Both the position numbers and the translations under genes were made by a program. A stretch of DNA of 64,000 bases, taken from NCBI GenBank assembly GCA_938092005.1, contig CALKOU010000002.1:124001-188000 (forward strand), written 5' to 3'. Below are positions 21,237-61,115 of the stretch, one piece after another. Source of the stretch: an uncultured Flavobacteriaceae bacterium. GTDB taxonomy: Bacteria; Bacteroidota; Bacteroidia; Flavobacteriales; Flavobacteriaceae. Under the pieces are notes generated by a model. The model did not search any database. It was not told where the DNA came from and worked only from the letters and a program-made list of their open reading frames with translations. Positions within the stretch are counted from its first letter, which is position 1, and each line of letters starts with the position of its first letter.

Positions 21237-21710
21237 TTACTTGTTAAATTGAATTTGAACTGTTGCTTTTTTAATTTCGGTATAAGATACTTTAGCATCT
21301 TTGGTTACCGTATGTTTTCCTTTGCCAACGGGTTTAGGTTCACGTGCCTTCCATTGCAACGCAATACTTTGGTCGTCAATAGCCGTTAGCGTGCCTTTTA
21401 ATTCTTCGTCGCTGTTGGTGATGATTTTCAAAATACGCCCTACATGCTTTTTGTACTGGCGCGGAATGGTGAGTGGAGCTGCTGCTCCAGCAGAACCTAC
21501 CTCAAGCGAAAAATCGTGTTCTTCCCGGTCTAAATTATGTTCAATATGGCGACTTACTTGCATGCATTGCTCTAAGGTAACACCAGTGTCACCATCGAGG
21601 ACTACACGAATGTGCGAAGCAGCATCGATGTGCATGTCCACCAAAAACAAAGTGGGCTGCGCCGCTAATGCTTCGCTAAGTAAATCCTGTACCTGTTTAT
21701 TAAACTCCAT
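21237..21710 (-). CDS. rimP: Ribosome maturation factor RimP
   Basis: 157 residues. Needed for 30S subunit maturation. The N-terminal alpha/beta domain (VDMHIDAASHIRVVLDGDTGVTLEQC, then SRHIEHNLD and SLEVGSAGA) and the C-terminal SH3-like part (GRILKIITNSDEELKGTLTAIDDQSIAL) are evident. First gene of rimP-nusA-infB. A -7 box TATATTTG on the minus strand at 21767-21760 gives a transcript start about 45 bp upstream of the ATG. Confidence 0.95.
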   Translation of the reverse strand: MEFNKQVQDLLSEALAAQPTLFLVDMHIDAASHIRVVLDGDTGVTLEQCMQVSRHIEHNLDREEHDFSLEVGSAGAAAPLTIPRQYKKHVGRILKIITNSDEELKGTLTAIDDQSIALQWKAREPKPVGKGKHTVTKDAKVSYTEIKKATVQIQFNK

Positions 21711-21759
21711 AAAATAAAAAAGAGGACTATGTCCCCCTACCTCTTCCCGTTAAACGGTG

Positions 21760-21767
21760 CAAATATA
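21760..21767 (-). promoter_or_regulatory. Candidate -7 box of rimP-nusA-infB
   Basis: TATATTTG on the minus strand fully matches TAnnTTTG. No TTG/TTTG was found at the expected -33 distance, which lies in the 51-bp leader repeat of the toxin-antitoxin module. Divergent with that module. Confidence 0.4.
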
Positions 21768-21775
21768 GGAATAAT

Positions 21776-21826
21776 ATTGGATTTTGTATATTTACAGGTA
21801 AATCTTACTAAGATGACTACAATTAC
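21776..21826 (+). repeat. 51-bp direct repeat, copy 1 (leader of toxin-antitoxin module 1)
   Basis: Identical over 51 bp to 22299-22349. It contains TATATTTA (21787-21794; seven of eight positions of the -7 consensus), the 5' leader, the antitoxin ATG (21813) and its first codons MTTIT. Confidence 0.9.
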
Positions 21827-22022
21827 TATCAATGACGACTCGCTAAAAGAAAACTTAAGTAAAAAGCCGTACGATAACTACAAGGATTTGATGGAAGACC
21901 TTGCCGAACTACACGGTTATGCTATTCTTTGGGAAGCCGACGAAAAGAAATTGTCCAAACATGTTCTGAAGTCTTTGAAAGCATACGAAAACGATGCAAG
22001 CCCCAAGCTGCACAACCTGTAA
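21813..22022 (+). CDS. Small putative antitoxin of a RelE/ParE-like module (copy 1)
   Basis: 69 residues from MTTITINDDSLKEN, the ATG inside the shared leader repeat. The protein is acidic with alternating charge (YKDLMEDLAELHGYAILWEADEKK) and has no recognisable DNA-binding domain. It is called an antitoxin because of position: the next frame (22026) starts 3 bp after its stop and encodes a small RelE/ParE-like toxin, and the same arrangement recurs 523 bp downstream. The frame is intact although its toxin is broken. Confidence 0.6.
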   Translation: MTTITINDDSLKENLSKKPYDNYKDLMEDLAELHGYAILWEADEKKLSKHVLKSLKAYENDASPKLHNL

Positions 22023-22025
22023 TAC

Positions 22026-22255
22026 ATGGATGTTTTTGAGTATGATACGGTGGTAACTTATTTGAAAAGTCGCCACATCTTAAAGGAATACAAAAAAGCT
22101 ATATAATAGAAGGACATTATCAGCAAGTTCAACTAAAAAAACGACATCCTTATTCCAGTGGTATTTGGTATTTTAGAATTACGCGAAAATATCGTGCCTA
22201 TGCCAAAAAAGAACAAAACAGACTTGTTGTTTTTGAAATCTCTGACCATCAATAA
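22026..22255 (+). pseudogene. RelE/ParE-like toxin with a one-base frameshift (copy 1)
   Basis: The frame begins at ATG 22026 (MDVFEYDTVVTYLKSRHILKEYKK) and stops at 22104-22106. The homologous sequence continues at once in another frame: SYIIEGHYQQVQLKKRHP, then IWYFRITRKYRAYAKKEQ and VVFEISDHQ, stop 22253-22255. The break lies at a run of six A (22092-22097); a seventh A would restore a single frame of about 77 residues. The pattern (central YRAYA, C-terminal VFEI) is that of small RelE/ParE/HigB-fold toxins of Bacteroidota. It is either a real null mutation or a homopolymer sequencing error. Confidence 0.65.
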
Positions 22256-22298
22256 GCATTTTTATCTTTTATCGTATGTGCGGTATTTATGGGATAAC

Positions 22299-22349
22299 AT
22301 TGGATTTTGTATATTTACAGGTAAATCTTACTAAGATGACTACAATTAC
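22299..22349 (+). repeat. 51-bp direct repeat, copy 2 (leader of toxin-antitoxin module 2)
   Basis: Perfect second copy of 21776-21826, 523 bp downstream; it contains the -7-like TATATTTA (22310-22317) and the second antitoxin start (22336). Outside this block the two modules have diverged strongly. Confidence 0.9.
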
Positions 22350-22527
22350 AATAAAAGAGGGTAACCCCCTACCGCAAAAAGAATTTAAAAACTGGGAAGA
22401 GTTACGAGGTCTGCTTAACTTTAAAGCTATCCAGTTTAAAGAAACACAAGAATCTGCCCCAATGCCACAAGAGCTAAAAGACAAGCCCTTAGCTAATTTT
22501 AACTACTTGACAGATAAAGGTCTATGA
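22336..22527 (+). CDS. Small putative antitoxin, diverged duplicate (copy 2)
   Basis: 63 residues, beginning MTTITIKEGNPLPQKEFKNW. Only the first residues and the leader are shared with copy 1; the rest (WEELRGLLNFKAIQFKETQE, then LKDKPLANFNYLTDKGL) resembles antitoxins only by size and position. It is followed directly by toxin remnant 2, whose reading frame overlaps its 3' end, as in coupled toxin-antitoxin pairs. Confidence 0.5.
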   Translation: MTTITIKEGNPLPQKEFKNWEELRGLLNFKAIQFKETQESAPMPQELKDKPLANFNYLTDKGL

Positions 22528-22720
22528 AACAGACGAGGTAGTCCGTTATTTACGAAAGCGAAACATCATTTAACCTTACCTCAAAGCAAAATCCTACTTC
22601 GAAGCAGGGCATCCGCAAGCCATACATCTAAAATTGCTAAAGCTCAAACGATATAAAGAAAGTGTTATGAAAAATCTAAATTTAGATAAAAGAATTTTTT
22701 ACAAATCATCGTATTTGTAA
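22514..22720 (+). pseudogene. Decayed RelE/ParE-like toxin (copy 2): lost start, in-frame stop, lost C-terminus
   Basis: One continuous frame aligns by eye with toxin 1: KVYETDEVVRYLRKRNII, stop TAA at 22571-22573, then PYLKAKSYFEAGHPQAIHLK. Three lesions are seen. The codon at the expected start is ATA (22514-22516) where ATG is expected; a Lys position has become TAA; and after IHLKLLKLK the similarity ends and the frame closes at 22720 without the YRAYA/VFEI core. It is clearly dead. Confidence 0.65.
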
Positions 22721-22795
22721 CAACCCATTTAGTTTTTAGAAATTTTTTTAATTGAGATGATTTGAAGTCAGTAATAACTGCTACAATTGGGTAAA

Positions 22796-22826
22796 TAAAA
22801 ACCCCCACTCAAGTATGAATGGGGGC
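22796..22826 (-). terminator. Terminator of tRNA-Gln
   Basis: On the minus strand a 10-bp stem CCCCCATTCA/TGAGTGGGGG (one G-T wobble) with a 4-nt loop is followed by TTTTTATTT. It lies 5 bp beyond the tRNA 3' end. Confidence 0.8.
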
Positions 22827-22830
22827 TTTG

Positions 22831-22903
22831 TTGGCCTACTAGGGCTCGAACCTAGACTCTTCTGAACCAAAATCAGACGTGTTGCCAGTTACACCATAGG
22901 CCA
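22831..22903 (-). tRNA. tRNA-Gln (anticodon UUG)
   Basis: 73-nt cloverleaf on the minus strand. Acceptor TGGCCTA pairs with TAGGCCA; D arm GGTGTAACTGGC; anticodon stem TCTGA/TCAGA with loop TTTTGGT (anticodon TTG); T arm CTAGGTTCGAGCCCTAG. CCA is not encoded. Sequence and anticodon identify glutamine. Confidence 0.96.
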
Positions 22904-23078
22904 CTATATCAAGCTTCGTTTAAAGGTCAAAAAACATCATCGTACAAAAACAATATAACGTTAAATGCAGTGTCAAACGGTTGGCAAAAATAACACAAAG
23001 TTTTTGTTGCGCCAATAGTTTCAAAAATCTTATGCGAAGTTTTAGTAGATATTGTAATTTAGTGCCTTTAGAAATCCT

Positions 23079-26000
23079 ATGAACTACGCCAAAGGAAACA
23101 CCCTAACAGGGTGGTTTGTGTTTTGTGTTGCATTTGTCACCTACTACCTAACTGTTGAACCCACAGCAAGCTATTGGGATTGCAGTGAATATATCGCTAC
23201 TTCAGCTAAATTACAGGTTGGACACCCGCCTGGAGCACCTCTTTTTCAAATGATGGGTGCGTTTTTCTCATCCTTTGCGAGCGGACCCGAAAACATTGCT
23301 TTCTGGGTCAATATGATGTCTGTAATGGCTAGTGCGTTTACTATTTTATTTATGTTTTGGTCGCTAACGCGCATCATCACAAAATTTGTTCTAAAAAACG
23401 AAAATCCAACAGGATCTTCCTTGTTTTTGGTGCTGGGAGCTGCCGTTGTAGGTGTGTTGAGCTACACATTTTCAGATAGTTTTTGGTTTAATGCCGTTGA
23501 AGCTGAGGTGTATGCCATGGCCATGCTGATTACCTCTGCCATGTTTTGGTTGGGATTGCGCTGGGAAGCAGAAATGCTCACCCCACGTGGCGATCGCTGG
23601 TTGGTGCTTATTGCCTTTCTCATTGGGCTTTCATTTGGCGTACACTTTATGGGGCTACTTACCGTACCTGCTATTGGAATGCTGTATTATTTCAAAAACT
23701 ACAGCTTCACCTGGAAATCGTTTGTAATCGCAAATATCGTCTCGGTAGCTGTTTTATTATTTGTTTTTAAGCTATTACTCCCGTTAACATTGTCCTACTT
23801 TGGCAATGCCGAAGTGTTTTTTGTCAATTCGTTTGGATTGCCTTTTAACTCAGGGACTGTTATCGCAGGGCTATCTATTCTTGTGCTTTTTGTATGGGCC
23901 ATCCGCAAAACACAGCAAAAAAAATGGGTTCAGCTCAACACAGGGCTGTGGTGTATTGGGTTTATTCTAATCGGATTTTCGTCTTGGATTATGTTGCCCA
24001 TACGCGCCAATGCCAATACCGTTATCAACGAAAATGCTCCCACCGACGCCCGTGCCTTATTGGCCTATTACAACTTGGAACAATATCCCGAAACGCATTT
24101 GTTCTATGGTCCCATGTACACCGACATGTATGCAGGGCAAGATTCCGATGACCCGTATAAAAACGATAAACCTAAATACGAAAAAGACCTCAAAAAAGGG
24201 CGCTATGTAGTTGTGAACAATTGGAAAGATGCGCGCATCAATGCCAATAGCAAACACACGGGAATCTTACCTCGTATGTGGAGTTCCGGCAATGCCATAA
24301 ACTACATCACCTATTTTGGTGCACCTGATTTTGATATTAAACCCGAATATCGAAATCAAGAGCAACTTATTGATTTGATCAACGACTTTATTGGGAAGGT
24401 CAACAATCAAGAGGTTGACGCACAAGGGTATCATGAATTTTTACAACGCTTTGGATCCTATATTGATATTGAAAAACCTTCATTACTAGACAACATCACA
24501 TACATTTTCAATTTCCAAATTAACTACATGTACTTCCGTTACTTTATGTGGAATTTTGCTGGGAAACAAAACGACGAGCAGGGAAAACTTGATGTATTTA
24601 ATGGAAATTGGATTAGCGGTATTTCTTGGCTAGACAGCCAGCGCCTTGGACCCCAAAAAAATCTCTACCAAGACGCTAAAAACAACAAAGGTCGTAATAC
24701 CTATTATATGTTGCCCTTGTTTTTAGGATTACTTGGCGCCTTGTTTTTGTATCAACAAGACAAAAAACGGTTTTGGGTGCTTTTGGTGTTTTTCCTCTTC
24801 ACAGGCTTAGCACTTAAAGTATATCTCAACGAGCGCGTATTCGAACCGCGAGAACGAGACTATGCTCTCGTAGGGTCTTTCTATGTGTTTGCCATGTGTA
24901 TAGGTATTGGCGTTGTAGCACTTGCTGATAGTCTTAAAAAAGTGGTGTCTGCTAAAGTGGCAGCACCTCTAGCTGTAGGGGTATGCCTACTGGCTGTTCC
25001 AGTGCTTATGGGTTCTCAAAACTGGGATGACCATGACCGCTCGAACCGATACACAGCACAATCAACAGCAAAAGCCTATCTGGATTCCATTGAAGAAGAC
25101 AAAGACGCCATGATTTTTACCATTGGCGATAACGACACTTTTGCCATTTGGTATGCGCAAGAAATTGAAGGGTATCGCACCGATGTGCGCAGCATCAACA
25201 CCCAACTGCTGGCTACCGACTGGTATATTGATCAGTTGAAGCGTAAAACCTACCAAAGCAATCCAATTCCATCACAACTCTCCCACAAGCAATATGCCTA
25301 TGGAACGCGAGACTATGTGAAATTTGAAGCCGTCAACGACAGTGTGCGCTGGGACTTAGCTGATTTTATGACTTGGGTGGCGAGCGATCACCCTCGTACG
25401 CGATACAGACATTTGCTACAACAATATGAAGTTGATCTTGACAGAGTACCGCAAGGAACACAAGAAATGGTGTACTACCCCACCAACAAAATAAGAGTGC
25501 CTGTCAACAAAGAAAATGTGCTTAAAAGTGGTATTGTTAACGCCGAAGATGCCGATTTAATTGTGGACTATATTGACATTGATTTACCCACATCGGGTTT
25601 GTATAAAAACCGTTTGATGATGCTGGATATTTTGTACAACAACGATTGGAAGCGTCCTATATATTTTACAGGCGGAAGCTATGATGATCAGGAATATATA
25701 TGGATGAAAGAGTACTTACAACTCGACGGATTAGTGTATAAGCTTGTTCCTATCAAAACGCCTGAGAACCCTATTAACCCATACCAAATGGGGCGTATTG
25801 ACAGTAAAAAAATGGTGGATATCATCAAAAAATGGGATTGGGGAAATGCCAATAGTCCGGATATCTACCACGATCCCGAAACACGAAAAAACAGCATTTC
25901 GTTCCGTAGCAATTTAACGCGACTAGCTGAGCAGCTCACTAAAGAAAACAAATCCGAAGAGGCTATTAAGGTTTTAGACCTAGTTATGGAAAAAATGCCA

Positions 26001-27034: not shown

Positions 27035-29836
27035 ATGTCCAAAAACCGCTTGTTCCTTCTAGATGCTTATGCGCTGATTTTTCGTGGCTATTATGCATTT
27101 ATCAAAAATCCAAGAATCAACTCTAAAGGCATGGACACCAGTGCCATTTTGGGCTTTACTAACTCCCTTTTTGATGTCATCAAAAGAGAACGCCCCGATC
27201 ATTTGGCAGTTGCATTTGACAAAGGAGGCTCCCAATTCAGAAACGACCTTTTTACAGACTACAAAGCCAACCGATCTGAAACACCTGAAGCCATAAAAAT
27301 TGCGGTGCCCTATATTCAAACCCTACTTAAAGCGCTGCATATTCCCATTATTGAACTGGAAGGATATGAAGCCGATGACATTATTGGCACCCTAGCCAAA
27401 CAAGCCGAAAAAGAAAATTTTGAAGTTTTTATGGTAACCCCTGACAAAGACTTTGCACAGTTGGTTTCTGAAAACATATTCATGTATCGCCCCGCGCGCA
27501 TGGGCAATGGCATCGAAATTTGGGGTATACCCGAAGTACAAGAAAAATTTGAAATCAAACACCCCGATCAAGTCATTGATTATTTGGGCATGATGGGCGA
27601 TGCGGTGGATAACATCCCCGGCCTTCCAGGCGTTGGCGACAAAACAGCTAAAAAATTTCTAGCACAATATGGAAGTATGGAAGCCCTATTGGAACACACC
27701 CATGAGCTAAAGGGTAAAATGAAAGAAAAAATTGAAGCCAACAAAGAACTTGGATTGTTATCTAAGAAGTTGGCACGTATTTTATTGGATGTTCCTGTGC
27801 AGTTTGATGCCGATGACTACAAGCTATCAGATCCGGATGTGCCTGCCGTGAGTGAATTGTTTCAAGAACTTGAGTTCAGACGCTTAAGCGAAACCTTTAT
27901 CAAGGTCTTTAAGCCAACGGAAGAAACCGTCATTGAGGCAAAACCTCAGGAAAAAGCAGCCCCCGTTGCGTTTGATTTGTTTAATCAGCCCGGAGGTGGA
28001 CAAAACGATACGATTTCATCATTCAAATCACTCGATGATACTCCGCATCACTACCAGTGTGTTCAAACAAAACTGGAACGGAAATTACTCGTTCAAACCA
28101 TGCTCGCGCAAAAAAGCGTGTGTTTTGATACCGAAACCACAGGGTTAGACGCCATTAGCGCATCGCTAGTGGGCATTGCCTTTTGTTGGCAAGCGCACAC
28201 GGGTTATTATGTGCCCGTTCCTGAAGATCAAAACGAGCGTGAAGCCATACTTGCTTCGTTGTTGCCTTTTTTTGAAAATGAAGCCATTGAAAAGGTGGGG
28301 CAAAACCTAAAGTATGACATTAAAATTATGCAACAGCATGGCGTAACGGTCAAAGGACCGCTGTTTGATACCATGCTAGCACACTATATCATCAATCCCG
28401 ACATGCGGCATAATATGGACGTACTGGCCGAAACCTATCTTGCATATCGCCCAAAACCCATTACGGATTTGATTGGCAAAAAAGGGAAAAATCAAGGATC
28501 CATGCGTCACGTTCCGCTAGATCAGCAAACCGAATATGCAGCAGAAGATGCCGACATTACCTGGCAACTTAAAGAGCATTTTGAACAGGAGCTTGGTAAA
28601 AACGAACAACGCTCATTGTTGGACAAGGTTGAACTTCCTTTGATACGGGTCTTAGCAGCCATGGAACTGGCAGGGATTAGCGTAGACGTACCCTATTTAA
28701 ACACCATGTCCAAAACGTTACAAGACGAAGCAACAGCATTAGAACAACGCATTTTTGAGCAAGCAGGCGAGACCTTTAATTTGGCATCTCCCAAACAATT
28801 GGGGCCTGTGCTATTTGACAAGCTAAAATTGGTAGACAAACCCAAAAAAACCAAAACGGGACAATACTCCACCGCTGAAGATGTGCTTTCAACCCTGGCT
28901 AAAGAACACCCCATTGTAGCTGATATTTTGGAATGGCGCAGCGTTCAAAAACTCAACAACACTTATGTATCGGCATTGCCCGAAGACGTGAATACAACCA
29001 CAAAACGCATCCACACGGTTTACAATCAAGCGGTTGCTGCCACTGGCCGACTAAGCAGTAACCATCCAAACTTGCAAAATATTCCCATTCGTACACCCAG
29101 AGGGCAGCAGGTGCGAAAAGCCTTTGTGGCCAAAGACGATGCGCACGTGCTTATGGCGGCGGATTACTCTCAAATTGAACTGCGCATCATCGCTTCATTG
29201 AGTGAAGACCCAAGCATGTTGGCGGCTTTTAACAACAACGAAGATATACACGCAGCCACAGCAGCAAAAGTATTTCATGTGCCCCTTTCTGAAGTGACAC
29301 GAGAACAACGAAGTCAAGCCAAAACCGTCAATTTTGGTATTATTTATGGCGTGTCGGCCTTTGGGCTTAGCAATCAAACCACGCTCAATCGCAAAGAAGC
29401 AAAAGCCCTTATTGATGCGTACTATGAAAGCTACCCCAAACTAAAGGCATATATGAGTGAGCAAGTGGATTTTGCCCGAGAGCATGGCTATGTGGCCACC
29501 GTTTTGGGCAGACGCCGTTATTTAAAAGACATCAATTCTCGAAACGCCATAGTACGTGGTGCTGCCGAACGCAACGCCATCAATGCGCCCATTCAAGGAA
29601 GTGCTGCCGATATCATCAAGCTAGCCATGCTGACTATATATGACAAAATGCAAGAGCAACACTTTAAGGCACAAATGCTCCTGCAAGTGCATGACGAACT
29701 GGTGTTTGAGTGTCCAAAATCGGAACTGGATGCCCTAACACAGCTTGTAAAAACCGAAATGGAAGCCGCCTATTCCCTTCAAGTTCCACTTACCGTTGAC
29801 ATCGGGATCGGGCAGAACTGGCTGGAAGCGCATTGA
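27035..29836 (+). CDS. polA: DNA polymerase I
   Basis: 933 residues. N-terminal 5' nuclease (1-about 290: FLLDAYALIFRGYYAF, EADDIIGTLA, GDAVDNIPGLPGVGDKTA). The 3'-5' exonuclease domain has motif FDTETTGLD (about 366), NLKYD and YAAEDADIT, so proofreading residues appear intact. Polymerase domain: motif A DYSQIELR (about 710), motif B region RSQAKTVNFGIIYG, motif C QVHDELVFE (about 890). It fills gaps in repair and removes Okazaki primers. In Flavobacteriaceae polA is often directly upstream of rplM; here two extra genes lie between. Confidence 0.97.
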   Translation: MSKNRLFLLDAYALIFRGYYAFIKNPRINSKGMDTSAILGFTNSLFDVIKRERPDHLAVAFDKGGSQFRNDLFTDYKANRSETPEAIKIAVPYIQTLLKALHIPIIELEGYEADDIIGTLAKQAEKENFEVFMVTPDKDFAQLVSENIFMYRPARMGNGIEIWGIPEVQEKFEIKHPDQVIDYLGMMGDAVDNIPGLPGVGDKTAKKFLAQYGSMEALLEHTHELKGKMKEKIEANKELGLLSKKLARILLDVPVQFDADDYKLSDPDVPAVSELFQELEFRRLSETFIKVFKPTEETVIEAKPQEKAAPVAFDLFNQPGGGQNDTISSFKSLDDTPHHYQCVQTKLERKLLVQTMLAQKSVCFDTETTGLDAISASLVGIAFCWQAHTGYYVPVPEDQNEREAILASLLPFFENEAIEKVGQNLKYDIKIMQQHGVTVKGPLFDTMLAHYIINPDMRHNMDVLAETYLAYRPKPITDLIGKKGKNQGSMRHVPLDQQTEYAAEDADITWQLKEHFEQELGKNEQRSLLDKVELPLIRVLAAMELAGISVDVPYLNTMSKTLQDEATALEQRIFEQAGETFNLASPKQLGPVLFDKLKLVDKPKKTKTGQYSTAEDVLSTLAKEHPIVADILEWRSVQKLNNTYVSALPEDVNTTTKRIHTVYNQAVAATGRLSSNHPNLQNIPIRTPRGQQVRKAFVAKDDAHVLMAADYSQIELRIIASLSEDPSMLAAFNNNEDIHAATAAKVFHVPLSEVTREQRSQAKTVNFGIIYGVSAFGLSNQTTLNRKEAKALIDAYYESYPKLKAYMSEQVDFAREHGYVATVLGRRRYLKDINSRNAIVRGAAERNAINAPIQGSAADIIKLAMLTIYDKMQEQHFKAQMLLQVHDELVFECPKSELDALTQLVKTEMEAAYSLQVPLTVDIGIGQNWLEAH

Positions 29837-29911
29837 TTTTAAAGTTTTTGACTTGATTTTTGGGTTATCCTTTGTAACTTGGAAAATCAATGTGCACCAA
29901 ATTTTAAAATC

Positions 29912-30499
29912 ATGAAACAATATTTAATACTGGTTGTTTTAGTGGCTTCAGCAAATAGTTTTGCTCAAGATAAATGGAAAACTTCGGTTGAACTCGATTT
30001 TGGTTTTCCAAGTGATTGGGAATATGAGTACAAATCTGCACCTCATGAATATACACATGTAGATTTAGAGGACTCTGGGTTTGTATTAAATTCTTTTGGG
30101 GTTCAAGGGTATCATGGATATTTTATTTTTGAAAACCTGAGCATAGGGCCGGTAGGCGGATATAATTACCAATCTGTGCAAAAGCTTTCCATGTTGCGCT
30201 TGGGTGCTCGATTTCAGCTACATTTTACTGGCAGAGATAATGCGTTTACTTATTTACAATTCTCAAATAATTTTTCTCTGAACTATGAACGGTTTAAAGC
30301 TGGGACACACATAAGATATGGTTTGGCATTCCCTCTCAAAAAAACAGATACAATCATAATTTCATTAAATCTGTTTGGAGAACTTTCTCAATATTATATG
30401 AATGGTAGTAAGCCCCTCCTTGAATACGTTGGTAATGAAACTCCAGTAGTACTTAGAGAAAAACCCCATGTGGGTGTCAGTTTAGGAGTTACATTCTAG
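29912..30499 (+). CDS. Predicted outer-membrane beta-barrel protein of unknown function
   Basis: 195 residues from the ATG at 29912 (MKQYLILVVLVASANSFAQ, a signal peptide cut after FAQ). The rest shows short alternating strands ending in aromatic residues (e.g. GYFIFENLSIGPVGGYNY, RLGARFQLHFTG, HVGVSLGVTF), which suggests an 8-stranded porin-like barrel. The C-terminal phenylalanine is typical of outer-membrane proteins. It lies in an AT-rich stretch between polA and rplM. I do not recognise a family. Confidence 0.65.
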   Translation: MKQYLILVVLVASANSFAQDKWKTSVELDFGFPSDWEYEYKSAPHEYTHVDLEDSGFVLNSFGVQGYHGYFIFENLSIGPVGGYNYQSVQKLSMLRLGARFQLHFTGRDNAFTYLQFSNNFSLNYERFKAGTHIRYGLAFPLKKTDTIIISLNLFGELSQYYMNGSKPLLEYVGNETPVVLREKPHVGVSLGVTF

Positions 30500-30577
30500 C
30501 TACTGCTAAACGAGTCAGTTGTATTAATTATGTTTTGTAAACATTAACAAGTGCCACATATTATCTTTTCTGTCCCA

Positions 30578-30604
30578 AAAACAAATCTAAAAATAGCGTT
30601 TGCA
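30578..30604 (+). repeat. 27-bp direct repeat, copy 1
   Basis: Identical over 27 bp to 33359-33385 (starting AAAACAAATCTAAAAATAGC and ending GTTTGCA). The second copy carries the -33 box of the rplM promoter; this one lies 2781 bp upstream with no ribosomal gene behind it. Confidence 0.9.
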
Positions 30605-30636
30605 ATGTTAAAATCAAATAGATTGATTTTAACATT
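30604..30636. repeat. Perfect 14-bp inverted repeat next to the 880-residue protein's promoter
   Basis: AATGTTAAAATCAA (30604-30617), 5-nt centre, TTGATTTTAACATT (30623-30636). It ends 7 bp before the -33 box at 30643. Stem and flanks are AT-only or nearly so; on the plus strand it is followed by TTAATTTTT. It could be a regulator-binding site or a weak terminator shielding the downstream gene. Confidence 0.7.
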
Positions 30637-30642
30637 TTAATT

Positions 30643-30673
30643 TTTGTAGTAGAAGCTCCATTACATATATTTG
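30643..30673 (+). promoter_or_regulatory. Promoter of the T9SS cargo gene
   Basis: TTTG (30643-30646), 19-bp spacer, TATATTTG (30666-30673): a complete match to the Bacteroidota promoter consensus. The start of transcription should be near 30679, about 17 nt before the ATG. Confidence 0.75.
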
Positions 30674-30695
30674 AAATTCCTCAAATTTTTTATTT

Positions 30696-33338
30696 ATGAA
30701 ATCTACGCTTCTTCAATCACATATATCTTTATTTCTTTTATTATCAAGTTTTTGCATCGGGCAAACATTTACTAAAATAGGTTCAACTGCTTCGAACACT
30801 TACAGTATAAACATGAAGTTTGCAGTTGAATCTTATGACAACACTTTATATAAACTCACGACTACTATAAAAAATACTGGTGACAACGACATCGAAATGA
30901 ATAAAGGCGTTTTTCGATATAATTCAGATATTAATCATTTTGCATTGTTTAATTACGTCCCAGGAAATTTAAGCTATCCTGACGATCAGAGTTTGCTTAT
31001 TTCGATTGTTGATGATGAAGGCAAATATATTCACTCTGTAACACACGTGTTCCCATCTGGCAGTTGGGTAAACAGTAAATTAAAAAAGAATGATTCTTTT
31101 ACCATCGTAGCACATGTTAAAGCCTACACAACTTCTTTAAATGAATTAGCAAATAGTATGGAATTCTTTGTTGACGGAAATGTACCTCCTTTGTTTAATG
31201 ATATAAAAATATATCTATCAGGAAATGATCATCATGAAACCCAAATCTATTATAGAGCACAAGGCAGTAGCGCTGCGAAAAACATAACCATTAGTGAAAA
31301 TGATATGGTAGCCATGCGTATTGGAAAAGCATATAACGTATGGTCTGAAAATTTTGTTGAAGGGACGTATCGGTACATAAGTGAAAGCACACTAGCTAGC
31401 CCATCAACTATCGTGTCAAACAGTGGTGCAAGTCTAACGTTGAGTTTCAATAAAGAGCGTGTTGAAACAGCCTTATATACAATCAATGTTAGTGGGCTCC
31501 CAAATGAAGCTTCTGTTCCAGCCACGCTGACAAGTACATCAGGGGAAGTAAAGTATGATTTAATTATTTCCAACGGAGAAAATCGGGTTCTACAAGTGTT
31601 ACTATCCAATTATTTGTTAAAAATTGAAAATGTTACAGACTTAGAGGCAGAGGAAGTTTACACTCCAAGCCACGCTCCAATGGTTAGTGTTTCGAGTAAT
31701 GGGTCAAACAGTATTAACGTTACTTTTTCAGCTACATCTATTTATCCATTTTCAGTCAAAGGTTATCCAAATTATTTAAGTCACGGTACTGTAACTAGCG
31801 CCTCTGCATCTATTGATTCAAACTTTGAAGACACTAAAATAGATGTCATTTTTAAATATTCTGGTAATGATGGTGCTGGCGATAGAGGTAAAATAGCGCC
31901 TACTTACGCAACCCAAAATACAATAGAACAAAGCCGACGACTAGAAGCTGAAATGAATAGAAATGTAATGCCATTAATGATTCATTACACAGCTAACGCA
32001 TCAGGCGGCGGAAGTAAAGAAGCAATAAAAGATTTAGAAGGAGACAATTTGTATTTTCACTATAGAAGTCTGATTGAAGAAATCAACGTGATGCTTAACT
32101 TTAAAGACGATGAACACCCTTATCCCGCTTCTCTAATCGTAAGTCCAGATTTACTTGGTGCTATTCAACAAGATGTAATAAACGGGCATGATGAAGGAAT
32201 ACTGACTAAGCATTTTGATGTAAATGCAAAAATTAAATTAGCCTTTGAGGATGCTAATATTGACGTATCCAATTTGCCAACATTTGAGAACAACTTTAAA
32301 GGGTATTTACAATCAATAAACTACACCATAACCTATGTTGGAGCGTGTAGCATTCCATTTGGTTATCAACAGAACGTATGGTCTGCAGGTTCTGCTTTAT
32401 GGGTTTTTAATGATGCTAATGAAGCTAGTGATCCTCAAACTATTGGGAATAAAGTTGCTGCTTTTATGAATGACCTTGGCGTATATAAAGGAGATTGGAA
32501 GCCTGACTTTGTTGCCTTTGATCGATATGAACGTGACTGTTTTGGACCCGACGGACGCTTGTTTTATGCTTGGACACCACAACACTGGAATAAATATTTA
32601 GATTATTGCAAGGTAATTGCGGCTGGTATTGGAAATCCACCTGTCATGTTGTGGCAAATTCCTGGAGGACACGTTCCTACTGATTCTGAAACTCTTGTTA
32701 ATTTTGATCCAACTCGATTTTCTTCGGTAGCGCCACAATACTTGCTTGGCGATAGCTCTTTGAATGCAGGCGCAGCAAACGCAGTAGATGTGGTAAAAAA
32801 CATCTCTTTAAATGGAGGAAGTCATTATGGTTCATCATCAACAGTTAGCGAACTTCTGATGAAGGACACACATGATTGGACTACAAATCAGCTCAAGCGA
32901 TTGGCTGAAATGAATGTATTTAATATTTGTTGGGGTGGTGGTTCGACTTTAGGCACTGTTCCTATTGGAACAAATGGAGACGATGATGGCTGGTTGGCTA
33001 ATAAGCTTGATGAATACTACCACGACGTTTATTTCAATACCAATAAAGATTTTGGCTATGCTGTGAGTGTGGCCTGTGGGCAAACACTTGGTTCAACAAC
33101 GGATAATCCATACACAATTGTATATCCAAACCCAACAACAGAAGCAATAAATTTCAGTAGTTCTGTTAATGTTCAGAAGTTAATTTTGTACGATGCAAAG
33201 GGACGTGTTTGTCATCAAGTTGAGGGTCAAAATATTGTGCGTTTTTCTCTAAAAGGATTGAGAGCAGGATTGTATTTTGCTAAAATTCATCTTGACAACA
33301 ACAAAGAAGTAACTATTAAGATAGTTAAAATCAATTAA
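30696..33338 (+). CDS. Large exported protein with type A T9SS sorting domain; possible glycoside-hydrolase-like barrel
   Basis: 880 residues. Signal peptide MKSTLLQSHISLFLLLSSFC, cut near IGQ. Residues about 25-165 form a beta-rich module (SMEFFVDGNVPP). About 175-400 are further Ig-like or binding modules. From about 400 to 770 there is an alpha/beta domain with MPLMIHYTANASGGG, FVAFDRYERDCFGPDG, MLWQIPGGHVPT and FNICWGGG, which looks like a TIM barrel of a carbohydrate-active enzyme. The last 75 residues (YPNPTTEAINFSS to the end VTIKIVKIN) are a type A sorting domain for the type IX secretion system. Enzyme family and substrate are not recognised. It has its own strong promoter and is bracketed by 27-bp direct repeats. 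Confidence 0.75.
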   Translation: MKSTLLQSHISLFLLLSSFCIGQTFTKIGSTASNTYSINMKFAVESYDNTLYKLTTTIKNTGDNDIEMNKGVFRYNSDINHFALFNYVPGNLSYPDDQSLLISIVDDEGKYIHSVTHVFPSGSWVNSKLKKNDSFTIVAHVKAYTTSLNELANSMEFFVDGNVPPLFNDIKIYLSGNDHHETQIYYRAQGSSAAKNITISENDMVAMRIGKAYNVWSENFVEGTYRYISESTLASPSTIVSNSGASLTLSFNKERVETALYTINVSGLPNEASVPATLTSTSGEVKYDLIISNGENRVLQVLLSNYLLKIENVTDLEAEEVYTPSHAPMVSVSSNGSNSINVTFSATSIYPFSVKGYPNYLSHGTVTSASASIDSNFEDTKIDVIFKYSGNDGAGDRGKIAPTYATQNTIEQSRRLEAEMNRNVMPLMIHYTANASGGGSKEAIKDLEGDNLYFHYRSLIEEINVMLNFKDDEHPYPASLIVSPDLLGAIQQDVINGHDEGILTKHFDVNAKIKLAFEDANIDVSNLPTFENNFKGYLQSINYTITYVGACSIPFGYQQNVWSAGSALWVFNDANEASDPQTIGNKVAAFMNDLGVYKGDWKPDFVAFDRYERDCFGPDGRLFYAWTPQHWNKYLDYCKVIAAGIGNPPVMLWQIPGGHVPTDSETLVNFDPTRFSSVAPQYLLGDSSLNAGAANAVDVVKNISLNGGSHYGSSSTVSELLMKDTHDWTTNQLKRLAEMNVFNICWGGGSTLGTVPIGTNGDDDGWLANKLDEYYHDVYFNTNKDFGYAVSVACGQTLGSTTDNPYTIVYPNPTTEAINFSSSVNVQKLILYDAKGRVCHQVEGQNIVRFSLKGLRAGLYFAKIHLDNNKEVTIKIVKIN

Positions 33339-33358
33339 CAAAGGCAATGGATTGCTTT

Positions 33359-33385
33359 AAAACAAATCTAAAAATAGCGTTTGCA
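33359..33385 (+). repeat. 27-bp direct repeat, copy 2 (contains the rplM -33 box)
   Basis: Perfect copy of 30578-30604. It starts 20 bp after the stop of the T9SS cargo gene and ends 2 bp past the rplM -33 element TTTG (33380-33383). Confidence 0.9.
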
Positions 33386-33410
33386 TTATTGGGGATAGTT
33401 TGTACATTTG
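33380..33410 (+). promoter_or_regulatory. Promoter of rplM-rpsI
   Basis: TTTG (33380-33383), 19-bp spacer, TACATTTG (33403-33410): full match to the phylum consensus. Transcript start about 33416, giving a leader of about 50 nt. Confidence 0.8.
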
Positions 33411-33467
33411 CAGCCCGCCAAACAGAGGTACATTTCTGTACGGCGATAACGAGCAAAAACGTATATA
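33411..33467 (+). other. rplM 5' leader with small hairpin
   Basis: The predicted untranslated leader contains a hairpin GTACA-TTTC-TGTAC (33428-33441). Ribosomal-protein leaders often bind their own product. Whether this one does cannot be told from one sequence. Confidence 0.35.
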
Positions 33468-33923
33468 GTGGACTCATTAAGTTATAAAACCGTATCCATC
33501 AACAAGCAAAACGCTGATAAACAGTGGGTTGTAGTTGATGCCGCCGACCAAATTCTAGGTCGCTTTTCTTCAAAAGTAGCCAAGCTATTGCGTGGCAAAT
33601 ACAAGCCAAGCTTTACGCCTCACGTAGACTGTGGCGACAATGTCATTGTAATCAATGCTGAAAAAATTAAACTAACAGGCAATAAGTGGACCGAAAAAAC
33701 CTATATCCGACACACCGGATATCCAGGTGGTCAACGATCCCTTACCGCTACCGAAGTATTTGAAAAAGACCCAACACGTGTTGTTGAAAAAGCCGTAAAG
33801 GGTATGCTTCCAAAAAACAAATTAGGTGCTGAGTTGTTCCGAAACCTTTATGTTATTGAAGGTGCCGAGCACAATCACGGTGGACAACAGCCTAAAGAAC
33901 TAAACATCAACGATTTAAATTAA
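33468..33923 (+). CDS. rplM: 50S ribosomal protein L13
   Basis: 151 residues starting at a GTG (MDSLSYKTVSINKQNADKQW), the N-terminus usual in Flavobacteriia. L13 core: WVVVDAADQILGRFSSKVA, HVDCGDNVIVINAEKIKLTG, GMLPKNKLG. Part of the 50S subunit assembly core. Followed after 1 bp by rpsI, the universal L13-S9 pair. Confidence 0.97.
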   Translation: MDSLSYKTVSINKQNADKQWVVVDAADQILGRFSSKVAKLLRGKYKPSFTPHVDCGDNVIVINAEKIKLTGNKWTEKTYIRHTGYPGGQRSLTATEVFEKDPTRVVEKAVKGMLPKNKLGAELFRNLYVIEGAEHNHGGQQPKELNINDLN

Positions 33924-33924
33924 T

Positions 33925-34311
33925 ATGGAAACCATCCACAAAATTGGTCGTCGCAAAACAGCCATTGCACGTGTATACCTATCTGAAGGAAAAGGTGAAA
34001 TCACGGTAAACAAAAAACCATTGGACGTTTATTTTGCGCCAGCAACATTACAATATAAAGTAAACCAGCCTTTCGCATTAACAGAAACAACTGGACAGTA
34101 TAATCTATCTGCATCTGTTGTAGGTGGAGGACCAAACGGACAAGCTGAGGCGGTACGTCTTGCGATTTCAAGAGCATTATGTGCCATTGACGAAGAGCAC
34201 CGTTTGGCGTTAAAGCCAGAAGGACTACTTACGCGTGACCCACGTATGGTGGAGCGTAAGAAATTTGGTCAGAAAAAGGCACGAAAAAAATTCCAATTCT
34301 CGAAACGTTAA
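33925..34311 (+). CDS. rpsI: 30S ribosomal protein S9
   Basis: 128 residues. METIHKIGRRKTAIARVYL at the start and the basic C-terminal tail RKKFGQKKARKKFQFSKR, whose final SKR reaches the P-site tRNA. Standard length. Cotranscribed with rplM. Confidence 0.97.
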   Translation: METIHKIGRRKTAIARVYLSEGKGEITVNKKPLDVYFAPATLQYKVNQPFALTETTGQYNLSASVVGGGPNGQAEAVRLAISRALCAIDEEHRLALKPEGLLTRDPRMVERKKFGQKKARKKFQFSKR

Positions 34312-34449
34312 CCTTACCGTTGCGCTTGCGCAACATCAAGTTCATTTAAATACCATTAATTTGTTGCCATTAGTTTAGCATCTAAATGCTCAAGGCCGAG
34401 ACATCGCCACTTAAGTATTGCTAATCAGGGAACGTAAACTATTACAACA
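34312..34449 (+). other. rpsI-rpsB spacer with hairpin; possible rpsB leader
   Basis: 138 bp. A perfect 7-bp hairpin GTTGCGC-TT-GCGCAAC (34319-34334) lies just after the rpsI stop but has no T-run, so it is at best a weak terminator. The rest (34335-34449) shows no full promoter match. It may be a processed leader of rpsB-tsf. Confidence 0.35.
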
Positions 34450-35397
34450 ATGTCTAAAATAGAAGTCAAAGACCTACTCGATGCCGGTGTGCATTTTGGT
34501 CACCTTACCCGCAAATGGAACCCTAACATGGCCCCATATATCTATATGGAGCGCAACGGGATCCACATCATCAACCTTTACAAATCGGTTGCTAAAATCG
34601 AAGAAGCTAACGAAGCACTCAAGAAAATTGCTGCTTCGGGTCGTAAAATTTTGTTTGTTGCTACAAAAAAGCAAGCAAAAGATATCGTTTCTCAAAAAGT
34701 TGCAAACGTAAACATGCCATACATTACCGAGCGCTGGCCTGGGGGTATGCTTACCAACTTTGTTACCATCCGCAAGGCGGTTAAAAAGATGGCAGCCATT
34801 GATAAAATGAAAGCTGATGGCACATTCAATACCCTTTCTAAAAAGGAAAAATTACAAGTAGACCGTTTGCGTGCCAAACTAGAAAAGAACTTAGGTTCTA
34901 TTTCAGATATGACACGTTTGCCTGGTGCATTGTTTATTGTGGATATCCGTCGCGAGCACATTGCCGTTAAGGAAGCACAAAAACTAAACATTCCCATCTT
35001 TGCAATGGTGGATACCAACGCTGACCCACGTGATGTGGATTACGTGATTCCTGCGAATGATGATGCATCAAAATCAATTGAAAAAATCATGACATTGGTG
35101 ACAGCTGCTGTTGCTGAGGGAATGCAAGAACGTCAAAAAGAAAAATCAGACGCTGATGCTGCTGCATCGGAAGGTGAGGTTGTTGCACCAACTGCTGAAG
35201 AAGTTGTAGCAGAAGCTGTTACAGAAGCTCCAGCTGCGGAAGCTGCTCCTGTTGCTGAGGAAACTCCAACTGAAGAAGCTGCTGTTGTTGAAGCGGAAAA
35301 ACCTGCCGATACTGAGCCTGCTGAAACGGCAACTGAGCCTGTCGAAACGGCAACTGAGCCTGTCGAAGTTGACGAAAAAACCAAAGAAGAAAAATAA
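34450..35397 (+). CDS. rpsB: 30S ribosomal protein S2, with long acidic C-terminal tail
   Basis: 315 residues; the S2 core ends near residue 225. Core signatures: DLLDAGVHFGHLTRKWNPNM, ERWPGGMLTNF, PGALFIVDIRREHIAVKEA, and FAMVDTNADPRDVDYVIPAN. The last 85 residues are an Ala/Glu/Thr/Val-rich acidic tail. Its end is encoded by three tandem 21-bp units (about 35311-35370) giving ATEPVET repeats. Such extended S2 tails are known in Bacteroidota. rpsB-tsf is the standard pair; tsf starts 10 bp downstream. Confidence 0.96.
   Translation: MSKIEVKDLLDAGVHFGHLTRKWNPNMAPYIYMERNGIHIINLYKSVAKIEEANEALKKIAASGRKILFVATKKQAKDIVSQKVANVNMPYITERWPGGMLTNFVTIRKAVKKMAAIDKMKADGTFNTLSKKEKLQVDRLRAKLEKNLGSISDMTRLPGALFIVDIRREHIAVKEAQKLNIPIFAMVDTNADPRDVDYVIPANDDASKSIEKIMTLVTAAVAEGMQERQKEKSDADAAASEGEVVAPTAEEVVAEAVTEAPAAEAAPVAEETPTEEAAVVEAEKPADTEPAETATEPVETATEPVEVDEKTKEEK
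35311..35370 (+). repeat. Three tandem 21-bp units within the rpsB tail
   Basis: ACTGAGCCTG(CT/TC)GAA recurs at 35311, 35332 and 35353 with a 21-bp period. The core ACTGAGCCTGTCGAA (reverse TTCGACAGGCTCAGT) equals a palindromic-type repeat often dispersed in bacterial, including flavobacterial, intergenic DNA, here in coding sequence. Confidence 0.8.
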
Positions 35398-57882: not shown

Positions 57883-58308
57883 ATGAAAACCCTAAGTATT
57901 TACCTCAATTTTGACGGCACCTGCAAAGAAGCATTTGAACACTATGCCAACGTTTTTAATACAAAAATTGAAGCCATGACCTATGCAGAGGCACCAGCCA
58001 ATTCAGGAATGTCAGACGTAGGTAAGGCGCACCAAGACCGAATGATGCATTGTTCCCTTCCCATTAACGATACTGTAGCAATTATGGGAAGTGATGTGGC
58101 AGGCGATCATTGTCAGCAACATAAGCCTGGAAACAATTATTCCATCTCATTAGATGTAGAAAACAAAAAAGAGGCAGACAGAGTATTTGCTGGATTATCA
58201 AATGGCGGACAAGCCATTATGCCCCCGTCAGAAACTTTTTGGAACTGCTATTGGGGTATGTGCGCTGATAAATTTGGTGTACAGTGGATGATTAGTGCAC
58301 CGCTTTAA
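57883..58308 (+). CDS. VOC-superfamily (PhnB-like) protein
   Basis: 141 residues. Glyoxalase/bleomycin-resistance fold of the PhnB type: [40 protein letters not shown], and the C-terminal [20 protein letters not shown]. Reaction unknown; PhnB-like proteins are mostly uncharacterised. Convergent with sdhB (4-bp overlap of the stops). Confidence 0.88.
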
Positions 58309-59051
58309 CCTTTCACATTCGCTGAAAGAAACTCACGATTCATACGTGCGATATTTTCTAACGAAATTCCTTTAGGACACTCCACTTCACAAGCACCGGT
58401 ATTGGTACAGTTTCCAAAGCCTTCTTCATCCATTTGCTTGACCATATTAAGCACACGGTCGGTAGCTTCCACTTGTCCTTGTGGCAATAGTGCATATTGC
58501 GATACTTTGGCAGAAACAAACAACATGGCTGAAGCGTTCTTACACGTTGCTACACAAGCACCACAACCAATACAAGTTGCCGCATCAAAAGCCTTATCTG
58601 CATCTGCTTTTTCAATAGGAATAGCATTGGCATCTTGTGTGTTTCCAGAAGTGTTTACCGAAATAAAACCACCCGCATGTTGTATGCGATCAAATGCAGT
58701 ACGGTCAACAACCAAGTCTTTAATAACCGGGAAAGGTTTTGCTCTAAAAGGTTCAATATGGATGGTGTCGCCGTCTTTAAACTTGCGCATGTGAAGTTGA
58801 CAGGTCGTAACAAGTCGGTCAGGGCCATGTGCTTCACCGTTGATGAACATGGAGCATGAACCACAAATCCCTTCACGGCAGTCGTGGTCAAAGGCTACAG
58901 GTTCAATCCCCTGTTCCATAAGTTGCTCATTGAGCACATCCATCATTTCTAAAAACGACATGTCGGGTGAAACACCGTCTAGAGAATAGGTCTGCATACT
59001 TCCTTTTGCGGTAGCGTTTTCTTGACGCCAAATTTTTAATGTCAGTTTCAT
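58305..59051 (-). CDS. sdhB: Succinate dehydrogenase/fumarate reductase iron-sulfur subunit
   Basis: 248 residues from ATG 59051 ([13 protein letters not shown]); an upstream in-frame alternative start is unlikely. Cluster ligands: [2Fe-2S] [19 protein letters not shown] with later TTCQLH, [4Fe-4S] [15 protein letters not shown], and [16 protein letters not shown] for the [3Fe-4S]. Transfers electrons from SdhA to menaquinone at SdhC. Last gene of sdhCAB. Confidence 0.96.
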
Positions 59052-59111
59052 AATTAAGTTTATTAGCCCTGAGGGAATAGGCAATAGTTATTTTTTATTG
59101 CTTACTACTCA

Positions 59112-61115
59112 CTACTTATATGATCGTGTTTTTAGTTCTATATTTTCGTACTTCAAGGCTTCTTTGTGAAGCTTTGCGTCGCTTGGTTCTCCTTTGTATT
59201 CCCATGCTGAAACAAAGGTGAAGTTTTTGTCATCTCTAAGGGCCTCACCTTCTGGTGATTGTGATTCCTCTCTAAAATGTCCTCCACAGGACTCTGTGCG
59301 TTCAAGTGCATCTTTAGCAAACAATTCGCCCAATTCTAAAAAGTCCGCAACACGTAGTGCTTTGGCCAATGGCTCGTTAAACGAGTCTGCTGTTCCAGGA
59401 ACAAACACATCCTTGTAAAACTCCTCTCGCAATGCTTTTACCTCCGCCATAGCTTCTTTTAAGCCTTTTTCGTTACGGGACATTCCACATTTATTCCAAA
59501 TGATTTTACCAAGTTTCCGATGGAAGTAATCAACGGTTTTGGTTCCCTTATTGGTAAGAAAAGCATCTATTTGGGTACGTACAGATTGCTCAGCTGCCTC
59601 AAATTCTGGTGTGTCTGTAGAAATAGGCCCTGTACGAATGTCATCGGCCAGATAGTCTCCAATCGTATAGGGTAATACAAAATACCCATCGGCCAGTCCT
59701 TGCATCAACGCAGAGGCTCCTAATCGGTTGGCACCGTGATCTGAGAAATTCGCTTCACCAATAGCAAAACATCCTGGTACAGTTGTCATAAGGTTGTAAT
59801 CTACCCATACGCCGCCCATGGTGTAATGTACCGCAGGGTAAATCATCATCGGGGTTTCATAAGGGTTTTGATCTACAATTTTTTCGTACATCTGAAACAA
59901 GTTCCCGTATTTAGCTTTGATAATTGCTTTACCCAATTTTTGTACGAGTGTAGTATCGTTTTCGTCTAAGCCTTTAACGTGTGCTTCCTCTTTGCCGTAA
60001 CGCTCAATGGCAGCAGCAAAGTCTAAGTAAACCGCTTCACCTGTCTTATTCACACCATAGCCTTCGTCACAACGTTCTTTGGCAGCACGTGAAGCAACAT
60101 CTCGAGGCACTAAGTTTCCAAAGGCCGGATAACGACGCTCTAGGTAGTAATCTCTGTCTTCCTCTGCCAATTCGGTAGGCTTTAGTTTGCCCTCACGAAT
60201 GGCGGCGGCATCTTCTTTTTTCTTAGGAACCCAAATGCGTCCGTCGTTACGCAACGATTCTGACATTAGGGTTAGCTTAGACTGATGATCGCCAGAAACA
60301 GGAATACATGTGGGGTGTATTTGTGTAAAACACGGATTCGCAAAATAGGCGCCTTGTTTGTGAATTTTCCAAGATGCTGTTACGTTGCTTCCCATAGCGT
60401 TGGTTGACAAGAAAAACAAGTTGCCATATCCACCAGAAGCTACAACAACTGCATGTGCTGCATGGCGTTCAATTTCGCCCGTTACCAAGTTACGTGTAAT
60501 AATTCCACGCGCTTTTCCGTCCACTTTTACTAGGTCAAGCATTTCGTGACGGCTGTACATTTTGATTTTTCCACGGCCAATTTGACGATTCATCGCAGAG
60601 TATGCACCCAACAACAACTGCTGACCCGTTTGTCCTTTGGCGTAAAATGTTCTAGAAACCAACACCCCACCAAAAGATCGGTTGTCTAATAAACCCCCAT
60701 AATCTCTGGCAAAAGGAACCCCTTGTGCCACACATTGATCGATGATGTTGGTAGAAACCTCAGCCAAACGGTGCACATTGGCTTCTCTAGAGCGGTAATC
60801 TCCACCCTTTACAGTATCATAAAAAAGACGATGAATGGAGTCACCGTCCCCTTGGTAGTTTTTAGCAGCGTTAATACCACCCTGAGCCGCAATGGAGTGC
60901 GCACGACGAGGCGAATCTTGAAAACAAAACGCTTTTACGTTATAACCTAGTTCGGCAAGAGAAGCAGCAGCTGAGCCGCCCGCAAGACCTGTTCCAACAA
61001 CAATCACGTCAATAAGACGCTTGTTTGCAGGACTAACTAAATTGATATTGTTTTTGTGGTTGGTCCACTTTTCGGCTATTGGGCCTTCGGGAATTTTAGC
61101 ATCAAGTTTGGCCAT
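59112..61115 (-). CDS. sdhA: Succinate dehydrogenase/fumarate reductase flavoprotein subunit
   Basis: 667 residues. FAD-binding [20 protein letters not shown] (about 41-60), the flavinylation histidine in [15 protein letters not shown], and active-site regions HPTCIP and [21 protein letters not shown]. The length and the SdhC type suggest the B-type enzyme used with menaquinone. 1 bp after sdhC and 60 bp before sdhB. Confidence 0.96.

Follow-up and report, generated by a model that had tools for sequence, protein, structure and literature searches.

A one-gene segment between two 27-bp copies of the upstream half of the rplM promoter in an uncultured Flavobacteriaceae bacterium

In a 64,000-nucleotide stretch of DNA from an uncultured Flavobacteriaceae bacterium (GenBank assembly GCA_938092005.1, contig CALKOU010000002.1, positions 124,001 to 188,000 of the forward strand; hereafter the window, whose coordinates are used unless a contig is named), we studied a segment with a single gene, the cargo gene, that is flanked by two exact copies of a 27-bp sequence. 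Comparison with relatives of the same genus shows this 2.75-kb segment, as judged from the aligned sequences, to lie within the promoter region of the ribosomal protein gene rplM, just after the -33 box and between 27-bp promoter halves. By the same comparison rplM is shown to retain a complete promoter on the right, with a half promoter that lacks a -7 box left behind on the left. The locus offers an unusually clean case of single-gene acquisition, with filled, partly filled and empty sites within one genus, in which the direction of change can be argued.

The repeat and its place in the rplM promoter

The elements on which the argument turns are, from left to right:
27035..29836, + strand: polA, the left core neighbour
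30578..30604, + strand: repeat copy 1, the stranded upstream half of the rplM promoter
30644..30673, + strand: promoter-like site of the cargo gene, TTG-N19-TATATTTG, with TTG at 30644-30646 and TATATTTG at 30666-30673
30696..33338, + strand: cargo gene, 880 aa, tagged for the type IX secretion system (T9SS); its guanine-cytosine (GC) content of 36.4% is the second lowest of 46 open reading frames (ORFs)
33359..33385, + strand: repeat copy 2, with the upstream part of the intact rplM promoter and its -33 box
33403..33410, + strand: rplM -7 box, TACATTTG, identical in 13 of 13 relatives
33468..33923, + strand: rplM (ribosomal protein L13), with a GTG start as listed

The two copies agree at 27 of 27 positions with a spacing of 2781 bp, as an earlier note on this DNA had described, and the match extends to 30 of 32 bases. 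The 27-mer is the second longest exact direct repeat of the window after a 51-mer at 21776/22299. Because the longest exact direct repeat in each of 20 simulated windows (order-2 Markov) reached only 15-19 bp, the pair is not a product of chance. The genome to which the window belongs is assembled to 1.62 Mb in 19 contigs, with an estimated completeness of 83.6%, and the window lies on its contig C2. In this genome the 27-mer was found at no more than these two sites, even with up to three mismatches allowed (a reversed control pattern gave none), and the segment itself has no second place there. The genome_contigs collection, which may omit this genome and very near ones, held no exact copy, and the viral_contigs collection held no copy of the last 26 bases. 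The wide dispersal that the earlier note had set against an insertion was thus absent, and we rejected a dispersed repeat on the counts from the genome and from genome_contigs.

One concern is that an assembler threaded a separate molecule sharing the 27-mer into the chromosome, given an incomplete assembly in 19 contigs and a shared word of a length at which short-word assemblers typically err. The contig is 218 kb long with conserved gene order on both sides, both junctions would be expected in the reads under either topology, and reads of at least 100 bases span 27 bp. We regard such an artefact as highly improbable.

The 27-mer is the upstream half of the rplM promoter. In the available text of PMC6847099 the flavobacterial promoter consensus is given as TTTG and TANNTTTG, and three plus-strand sites of the form TTG-N19-TANNTTTG occur in the 64 kb, namely those of rplM and the cargo gene and one inside an outer-membrane-like gene to the left of the segment. 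Copy 2 holds the rplM -33 box (TTG, 33381-33383), followed by N19 and TACATTTG. Copy 1 contains TTTG at 30599-30602 and no -7 box at the rplM-type spacing, which makes it the detached half promoter that the earlier note had seen in it. Between the copies, the cargo gene with its own promoter-like site is the one self-contained gene; the only other frame of at least 80 aa is a 119-aa frame antisense to it, with no Pfam match. As had been claimed, no transposase was present among the segment's ORFs, and neither the ORF list nor the Pfam searches gave an integrase.

Our genus set comprised 17 genomes, the window's own included, with one genome per species; rplM was matched in 14, and 13 relatives had a readable polA-rplM interval. 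Each of these 13 carries exactly one block, identical to the 27-mer at 20-26 of 27 positions and at the same distance before the same TACATTTG box, and the cargo gene is in none of their intervals, with the flanking neighbours conserved. A single block before rplM was what the earlier note had proposed beforehand as the mark of an empty site, and its proposal of an insertion with part of the promoter duplicated is borne out; no relative was found that had the gene and lacked the repeat. Across the 16 genus relatives, the cargo protein gave matches in its sorting tail only. In 11 of the 13, polA and rplM are directly adjacent, their aligned ends standing 118-123 bases apart in the six that were measured. 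The interval of relative G002 has about 560 extra bases with a small frame that looks lipoprotein-like by eye, and one block, while that of relative G009 reads polA, outer-membrane-like gene, single 27-mer and rplM, with no cargo gene. The G009 arrangement is, on sequence grounds, the expected prior state of the window locus, and the block follows the stop of the outer-membrane-like gene after 79 bases in G009 and after 78 in the window.

The flanks of the two copies tell the same story with unequal force. To the right of copy 2, nine bases are identical in 8 of the 13 relatives, and the next 21, which include the -7 box, in all 13; to the left of copy 1, tccca resembles what precedes the block in G009 and in G004. 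By these matches copy 2 sits in its ancestral right context, and copy 1 in its ancestral left context, the latter on weaker evidence. In G014, G010 and G001 the block is followed by ATATT, which the ATGTT after copy 1 resembles, and by this likeness the original duplication may have been slightly longer than 27 bp. Homology-facilitated illegitimate recombination would leave homology at one junction and microhomology at the other; copy 2 and its right flank are homologous to relatives, and at the left junction beyond the 27-mer the likeness of ATGTT to some relatives is the only one. For rplM, its leader and the downstream genes, nucleotide identity was highest to G014, the closest relative, in each segment compared, so that no stretch taken from a distant relative showed up on the right side of copy 2 in this comparison by segment.

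In a tree of 37 shared genes from nine genomes, the window's genome grouped with G014, G013 and G002, and G009 with G008; none of these five relatives has the cargo gene. The polA gene of the nearest relative is 81.7% identical in nucleotides over 1488 bases compared (range in the genus 75-82%), and by a rough estimate neutral sequence at 10% divergence has a chance of about 6% of retaining 27 identical bases. Since the copies are identical despite that distance in polA, the insertion event is, as far as these sequences allow, probably young and probably later than the split from the nearest relative.

The opposite direction, with gene and repeat ancestral and the gene since removed from the relatives by an exact deletion from repeat to repeat, would leave just the single-copy state that we see; such events appear in the available text of PMC2884548, and the outer-membrane-like gene is patchy too. 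Several independent losses would then be needed on the nine-genome tree, and the stranded copy would have stayed identical while polA in the genus is only 75-82% identical. The cargo is, moreover, of another type than the Flavobacteriaceae homologues found. We consider such a history very improbable.

Copy 1 might also be kept because it functions in the control of the cargo gene from upstream, in which case the repeat would reflect selected co-regulation and would not be a scar. Within the genus the block is indeed conserved as a promoter element, and its end lies 39 bp ahead of the cargo -33 box. Copy 1 is, against this, out of the rplM spacing, a hairpin-forming palindrome lies in between, and a young event accounts for the identity of the copies, and we give this explanation very little credence.

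The cargo protein and its family

Two domains were located in the cargo protein:
31749..33050, + strand: core domain of an STM0019-like family, residues 352-785, from tblastn, profiles and alignment
33120..33323, + strand: T9SS type A C-terminal sorting domain, residues 809-876, over both curated cut-offs

The sorting domain scored 38.1 bits against a cut-off of 27 and 41.8 against a cut-off of 23, which upholds the description of the gene as T9SS cargo. The N-terminus looks hydrophobic by eye in the translation, and the protein is probably exported by T9SS. Among 46 longer ORFs of the window, picked by a simple script (mean GC 42.0%, standard deviation 2.5%), codon-usage scores were ordinary for the cargo gene (rank 13 of 46) and for the outer-membrane-like gene (rank 10 of 46).

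In 59 other genomes, 16 of them of the genus, only the sorting domain was matched. Single-sequence genome searches returned the window's own gene alone, a weak null because profiles later found more members; a back-translated peptide scan with the full cargo confirmed no homologue in genome_contigs or viral_contigs, nor did profile A1 confirm one in viral_contigs. With the cargo body as query, tblastn matched six records of a plasmid collection (three of Salmonella and one each of Vibrio, Serratia and Cupriavidus) and two of a phage collection, both of Salmonella. The Salmonella match includes a frame noted as STM0019, which lies beside a chitinase-like frame. A four-row profile then found one further family member in 395 genomes of the phylum, and a five-row profile three in 397 genomes of the family.

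A core alignment of 374 columns gave the window protein identities of 35.0-40.9% with the proteins of Serratia, Vibrio and Salmonella, and of 20.1-22.5% with four Flavobacteriaceae homologues. The core tree set it with the Vibrio, Salmonella and Serratia proteins and put the four Flavobacteriaceae proteins in a separate clade (support 1.00, in one FastTree run). The STM0019-like proteins of these three proteobacteria share with the window protein a core of about 430 residues, an invariant Asp and a Trp-Gln-Ile-Pro motif; they differ in that a T9SS sorting domain terminates the window protein. These comparisons show the cargo to be, by predicted domain content, a proteobacterial STM0019-like body joined to a Bacteroidetes T9SS sorting domain. 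The gene could have come straight from a proteobacterium or by way of a Bacteroidetes lineage not yet sampled, and both origins would fit. A proteobacterial-type body with a Bacteroidetes secretion tag gives a concrete example of how T9SS cargo repertoires may grow.

By its sequence the cargo protein may act on a polysaccharide. The Vibrio STM0019-like protein has a PKD match and a sub-threshold CBM5/12 match, and the Serratia protein is plasmid-encoded and annotated as a chitinase. The window protein core matched no Pfam family and did not reach the curated cut-off of GH6. The Vibrio core, alone among the cores, scored 18.2 bits against Pfam GH6, below the cut-off of 27 (E 0.0023), and no GH6 match up to E 0.1 was found for the full-length Vibrio, Serratia and Salmonella proteins. 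Against the PDB, the five-row profile matched GH6 cellobiohydrolase chains at E 0.0013-0.0019, and the four-row profile matched another GH6 chain at E 0.42 on a different part of the profile (58-151 and 247-292 for the matches of the two profiles). The aspartates D258 and D263 are invariant, and a single-sequence AlphaFold model of the core had a pLDDT (per-residue confidence score) of 29.5 and was unusable. We did not adopt a GH6 identification, as its signals were weak and inconsistent between profiles and searches, and keep it as a lead only.

Routes of insertion

We favour, with moderate confidence, the reading that foreign DNA joined the chromosome at the rplM promoter by illegitimate or short-homology recombination, and that the duplication is seen because the promoter must be rebuilt. 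The cargo segment would have entered between the -33 and -7 boxes, and the insertion itself would have made the duplication of 27 bp, perhaps of up to 32 bp at first. The joining could have followed homology-facilitated illegitimate recombination, or a circular molecule sharing about 30 bp could have entered by a single crossover. Selection would then act as a filter, an insertion at this place surviving only with the promoter of the essential rplM rebuilt. The scar, with which the essential promoter is once more complete, suggests in this way how the insertion came to be tolerated. If the two copies recombined, the gene would in turn be excised precisely and the ancestral site restored.

To see how often such repeats accompany inserts, we surveyed syntenic segments of nine genomes (481,596 bases), in which nine intervals gave 14 filled cases. 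These intervals were seven of ten flagged ones and two unflagged ones, and among the smaller differences in length some may be something other than a simple insertion. The remaining three flagged intervals were set aside beforehand, that at 21237-23079 for its tandem small genes and that at 34450-35252 for its low-complexity ends, along with 58305-59112. A direct repeat of at least 20 bp at the boundaries was found in 2 of the 14, the cargo segment and an 877-bp insert of relative G001. The latter (C9, 46156-47072 of the joined reverse strand) holds two small frames and lies between convergent core genes. It duplicates the end of a neighbouring gene, with 43 exact bases and 88.9% identity over 90, and the neighbour's own end is complete. 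Compared with the allele of the sister G010, the copy in the complete gene is 91.3% identical over 126 bases and the stranded copy 83.3% over 90. This uneven divergence of the two G001 copies hints at a donor allele.

The different repeat lengths at the two loci, the lack of a transposase or integrase in the cargo segment, the lack of a third 27-mer and the complete neighbours together argue for illegitimate or short-homology recombination. A ComEC family protein is encoded in the window's genome and in 11 others of the 17, which makes uptake of free DNA conceivable.

The event belongs to an already known kind of gene gain. According to the available text of PMC2884548, repeats of at least 5 bp border 10-18% of small variable segments, 66-94% of such repeats are shorter than 30 bp, illegitimate recombination is favoured for the repeat-flanked segments, and some of the variability comes from events between repeats. 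Those segments, like ours, occupy one place between conserved neighbours, contain no mobile-element gene and have direct repeats that are mostly below 30 bp. They differ in coming from comparisons within species with repeats counted from 5 bp, whereas ours is a comparison between species of a genus, with a repeat of 27 bp that makes up half of an essential ribosomal promoter. Our 2 of 14 may perhaps be high beside the published rate, with which it is not directly comparable because the published count starts at 5 bp and must give a lower rate for repeats of at least 20 bp. The mechanism, which the earlier note had called unclear, is still unproven in its exact form but less puzzling now that flanking repeats prove to be documented for variable segments (PMC2884548, in the part available). 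The system described in the available text of PMC3240628 is alike in that short or one-sided homology joins foreign DNA and in that crossovers of circles duplicate a stretch of the target. The duplications left by such single crossovers measured 109-950 bp, so that scars of this sort do arise, though longer than the 27-32 bp here. Within the literature that we searched on target duplications and on single-crossover or promoter duplication, we found no close parallel, and we do not claim that the pattern is unpublished.

Several points weigh against the reading of illegitimate or short-homology joining of foreign DNA. Twelve of the 14 filled cases had no boundary repeat of at least 20 bp, one of them having a 14-mer inside the insert, and the codon usage of the cargo gene is ordinary for the window. 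The insert is carried by one genome only, which is 83.6% complete, and a core identity of 35-41% speaks to the type of the protein and not to its source. When the spacer between the outer-membrane-like gene and the block was compared in G009 and the window, 76 of 5000 shuffles matched as well, and 1604 of 5000 did so without its last ten bases. The spacers are thus alike only near the block, and the ancestral left context of copy 1 rests on few bases. As to process, homology-facilitated illegitimate recombination itself is predicted to give deletions and not duplications in the available text of PMC3240628, and 27 bp is short for RecA pairing, repeats below 30 bp being under the threshold reported in that of PMC2884548. 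Finally, a target duplication from a staggered cut, or a recombinase acting in trans, would leave the same picture.

The last of these points leads to a site-specific cassette, with the 27-mers as attL and attR, attB in the rplM promoter and a tyrosine recombinase in trans. It would be expected to leave exact repeats at its flanks, a complete target and attB-like sites that are empty in relatives, three domains of the tyrosine-recombinase type are encoded in the genome, on contigs C1, C14 and C5 (that on C5 in a 354-aa frame, scoring far below the two in frames of about 300 aa), and the G001 insert is likewise a small segment with repeats. The segment, on the other hand, has no integrase, the recombinase domains are on contigs other than the window's C2, and the genome has no third 27-mer or near copy. 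G009 and G002, moreover, have extra genes at the same site with a single block only, and the G001 repeat has another length and sequence. We judge such a cassette unlikely. Integrase-mediated genomic islands combine precise integration, flanking repeats and a rebuilt target, and in these features the present locus is like them. Compared with islands of this kind, such as the Riemerella island in the available text of PMC6764341, the present segment has no integrase and one gene, and its repeat was not found elsewhere.

A stronger proposal is that the rplM promoter serves as a landing pad, which a 2781-bp circular cassette with one 27-bp half enters and leaves precisely through a host recombinase or RecA, and that integrase-free, target-duplicating inserts are a general route of gene flow in the genus. 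If true, a secreted enzyme from another phylum could be gained and lost without breaking the ribosomal operon, and the G001 insert of 877 bp would be a second example; we think it quite improbable.

Transposition, with a target-site duplication of unusual length and a transposase that was lost afterwards, would also give a direct repeat at the target and an empty site. The segment has no transposase and is not repeated elsewhere in the genome, and its two ends are not paired by inverted repeats of at least 14 nt, shorter ones not having been looked for. The target-site duplications of most insertion sequences measure from a few to about 14 bp, and 27 bp is far above that. This explanation seems to us decidedly improbable.

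Surroundings of the segment and other repeats

Three further features adjoin the copies:
29912..30499, + strand: outer-membrane-like gene, with a sub-threshold Pfam match only and the lowest GC (35.4%) of the 46 ORFs
30604..30636, no strand assigned: perfect 14-bp inverted repeat with a 5-nt loop (RNA fold -12.6 kcal/mol, z -3.6)
33341..33358, + strand: small hairpin after the cargo stop (-5.0 kcal/mol, z -2.3; 5 of 200 shuffles as good)

The outer-membrane-like gene is present in 2 of the 17 genus genomes, the window's and G009, at the same place and with 75% amino acid identity. From this distribution it was probably an earlier or separate extra gene, and the interval probably already held it before the cargo gene arrived. 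The first 100 bases after polA are clearly related between G002 and G009 (0 of 2000 shuffles as good) and probably related between the window and G009 (21 of 2000). Together with the patchy outer-membrane-like gene, these related bases indicate that the polA-rplM interval was altered more than once. In G002 (L025) and G009 (L031) the related bases after polA are followed by different frames, which hints at an older shared insert.

The AT-rich 14-bp palindrome shares its first base with the end of copy 1. It occurs in 1 of the 17 genus genomes, the window's, and once there, and for this reason we rejected it as a mobile end or dispersed element. It is possibly a terminator between the outer-membrane-like gene and the cargo gene, an operator, or a by-product of the joining event. 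A GC-demanding terminator scan of 30480-30720 gave no terminator-like site, the palindrome included, and a sigma-70-type scan of the same bases gave two promoter-like sites against 1.8 in shuffles. The hairpin at 33341-33358 ends one base before copy 2 and looks weakly terminator-like from its predicted fold. An Rfam scan of 29800-34400 with E up to 1 gave no match, and no ribosomal leader at rplM.

In 484 kb of the window's genome, the other spaced exact repeats of at least 20 bp were the 51-mer pair, a 44-mer pair and two clusters that resemble repetitive or tandem genes. The 51-bp repeat (21776-21826 and 22299-22349, in the region 21729-22600) covers a promoter-like stretch and the start of two small frames; by eye, the first pair of frames looks toxin-antitoxin-like and the second resembles its decayed relative. 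The 44-bp repeat (G000 contig C1, 54469-54512 and 55102-55145; locus L090, 14469 and 15102) is exact within a longer imperfect repeat and flanks one small lipoprotein-like gene, with a hairpin-like sequence and a C run before it. By eye it resembles a dispersed palindromic element, unlike the 27-mer. On contig C2 of G000, several direct repeats of 20-28 bp lie within about 5 kb (192335-197752), perhaps in genes for repetitive proteins.

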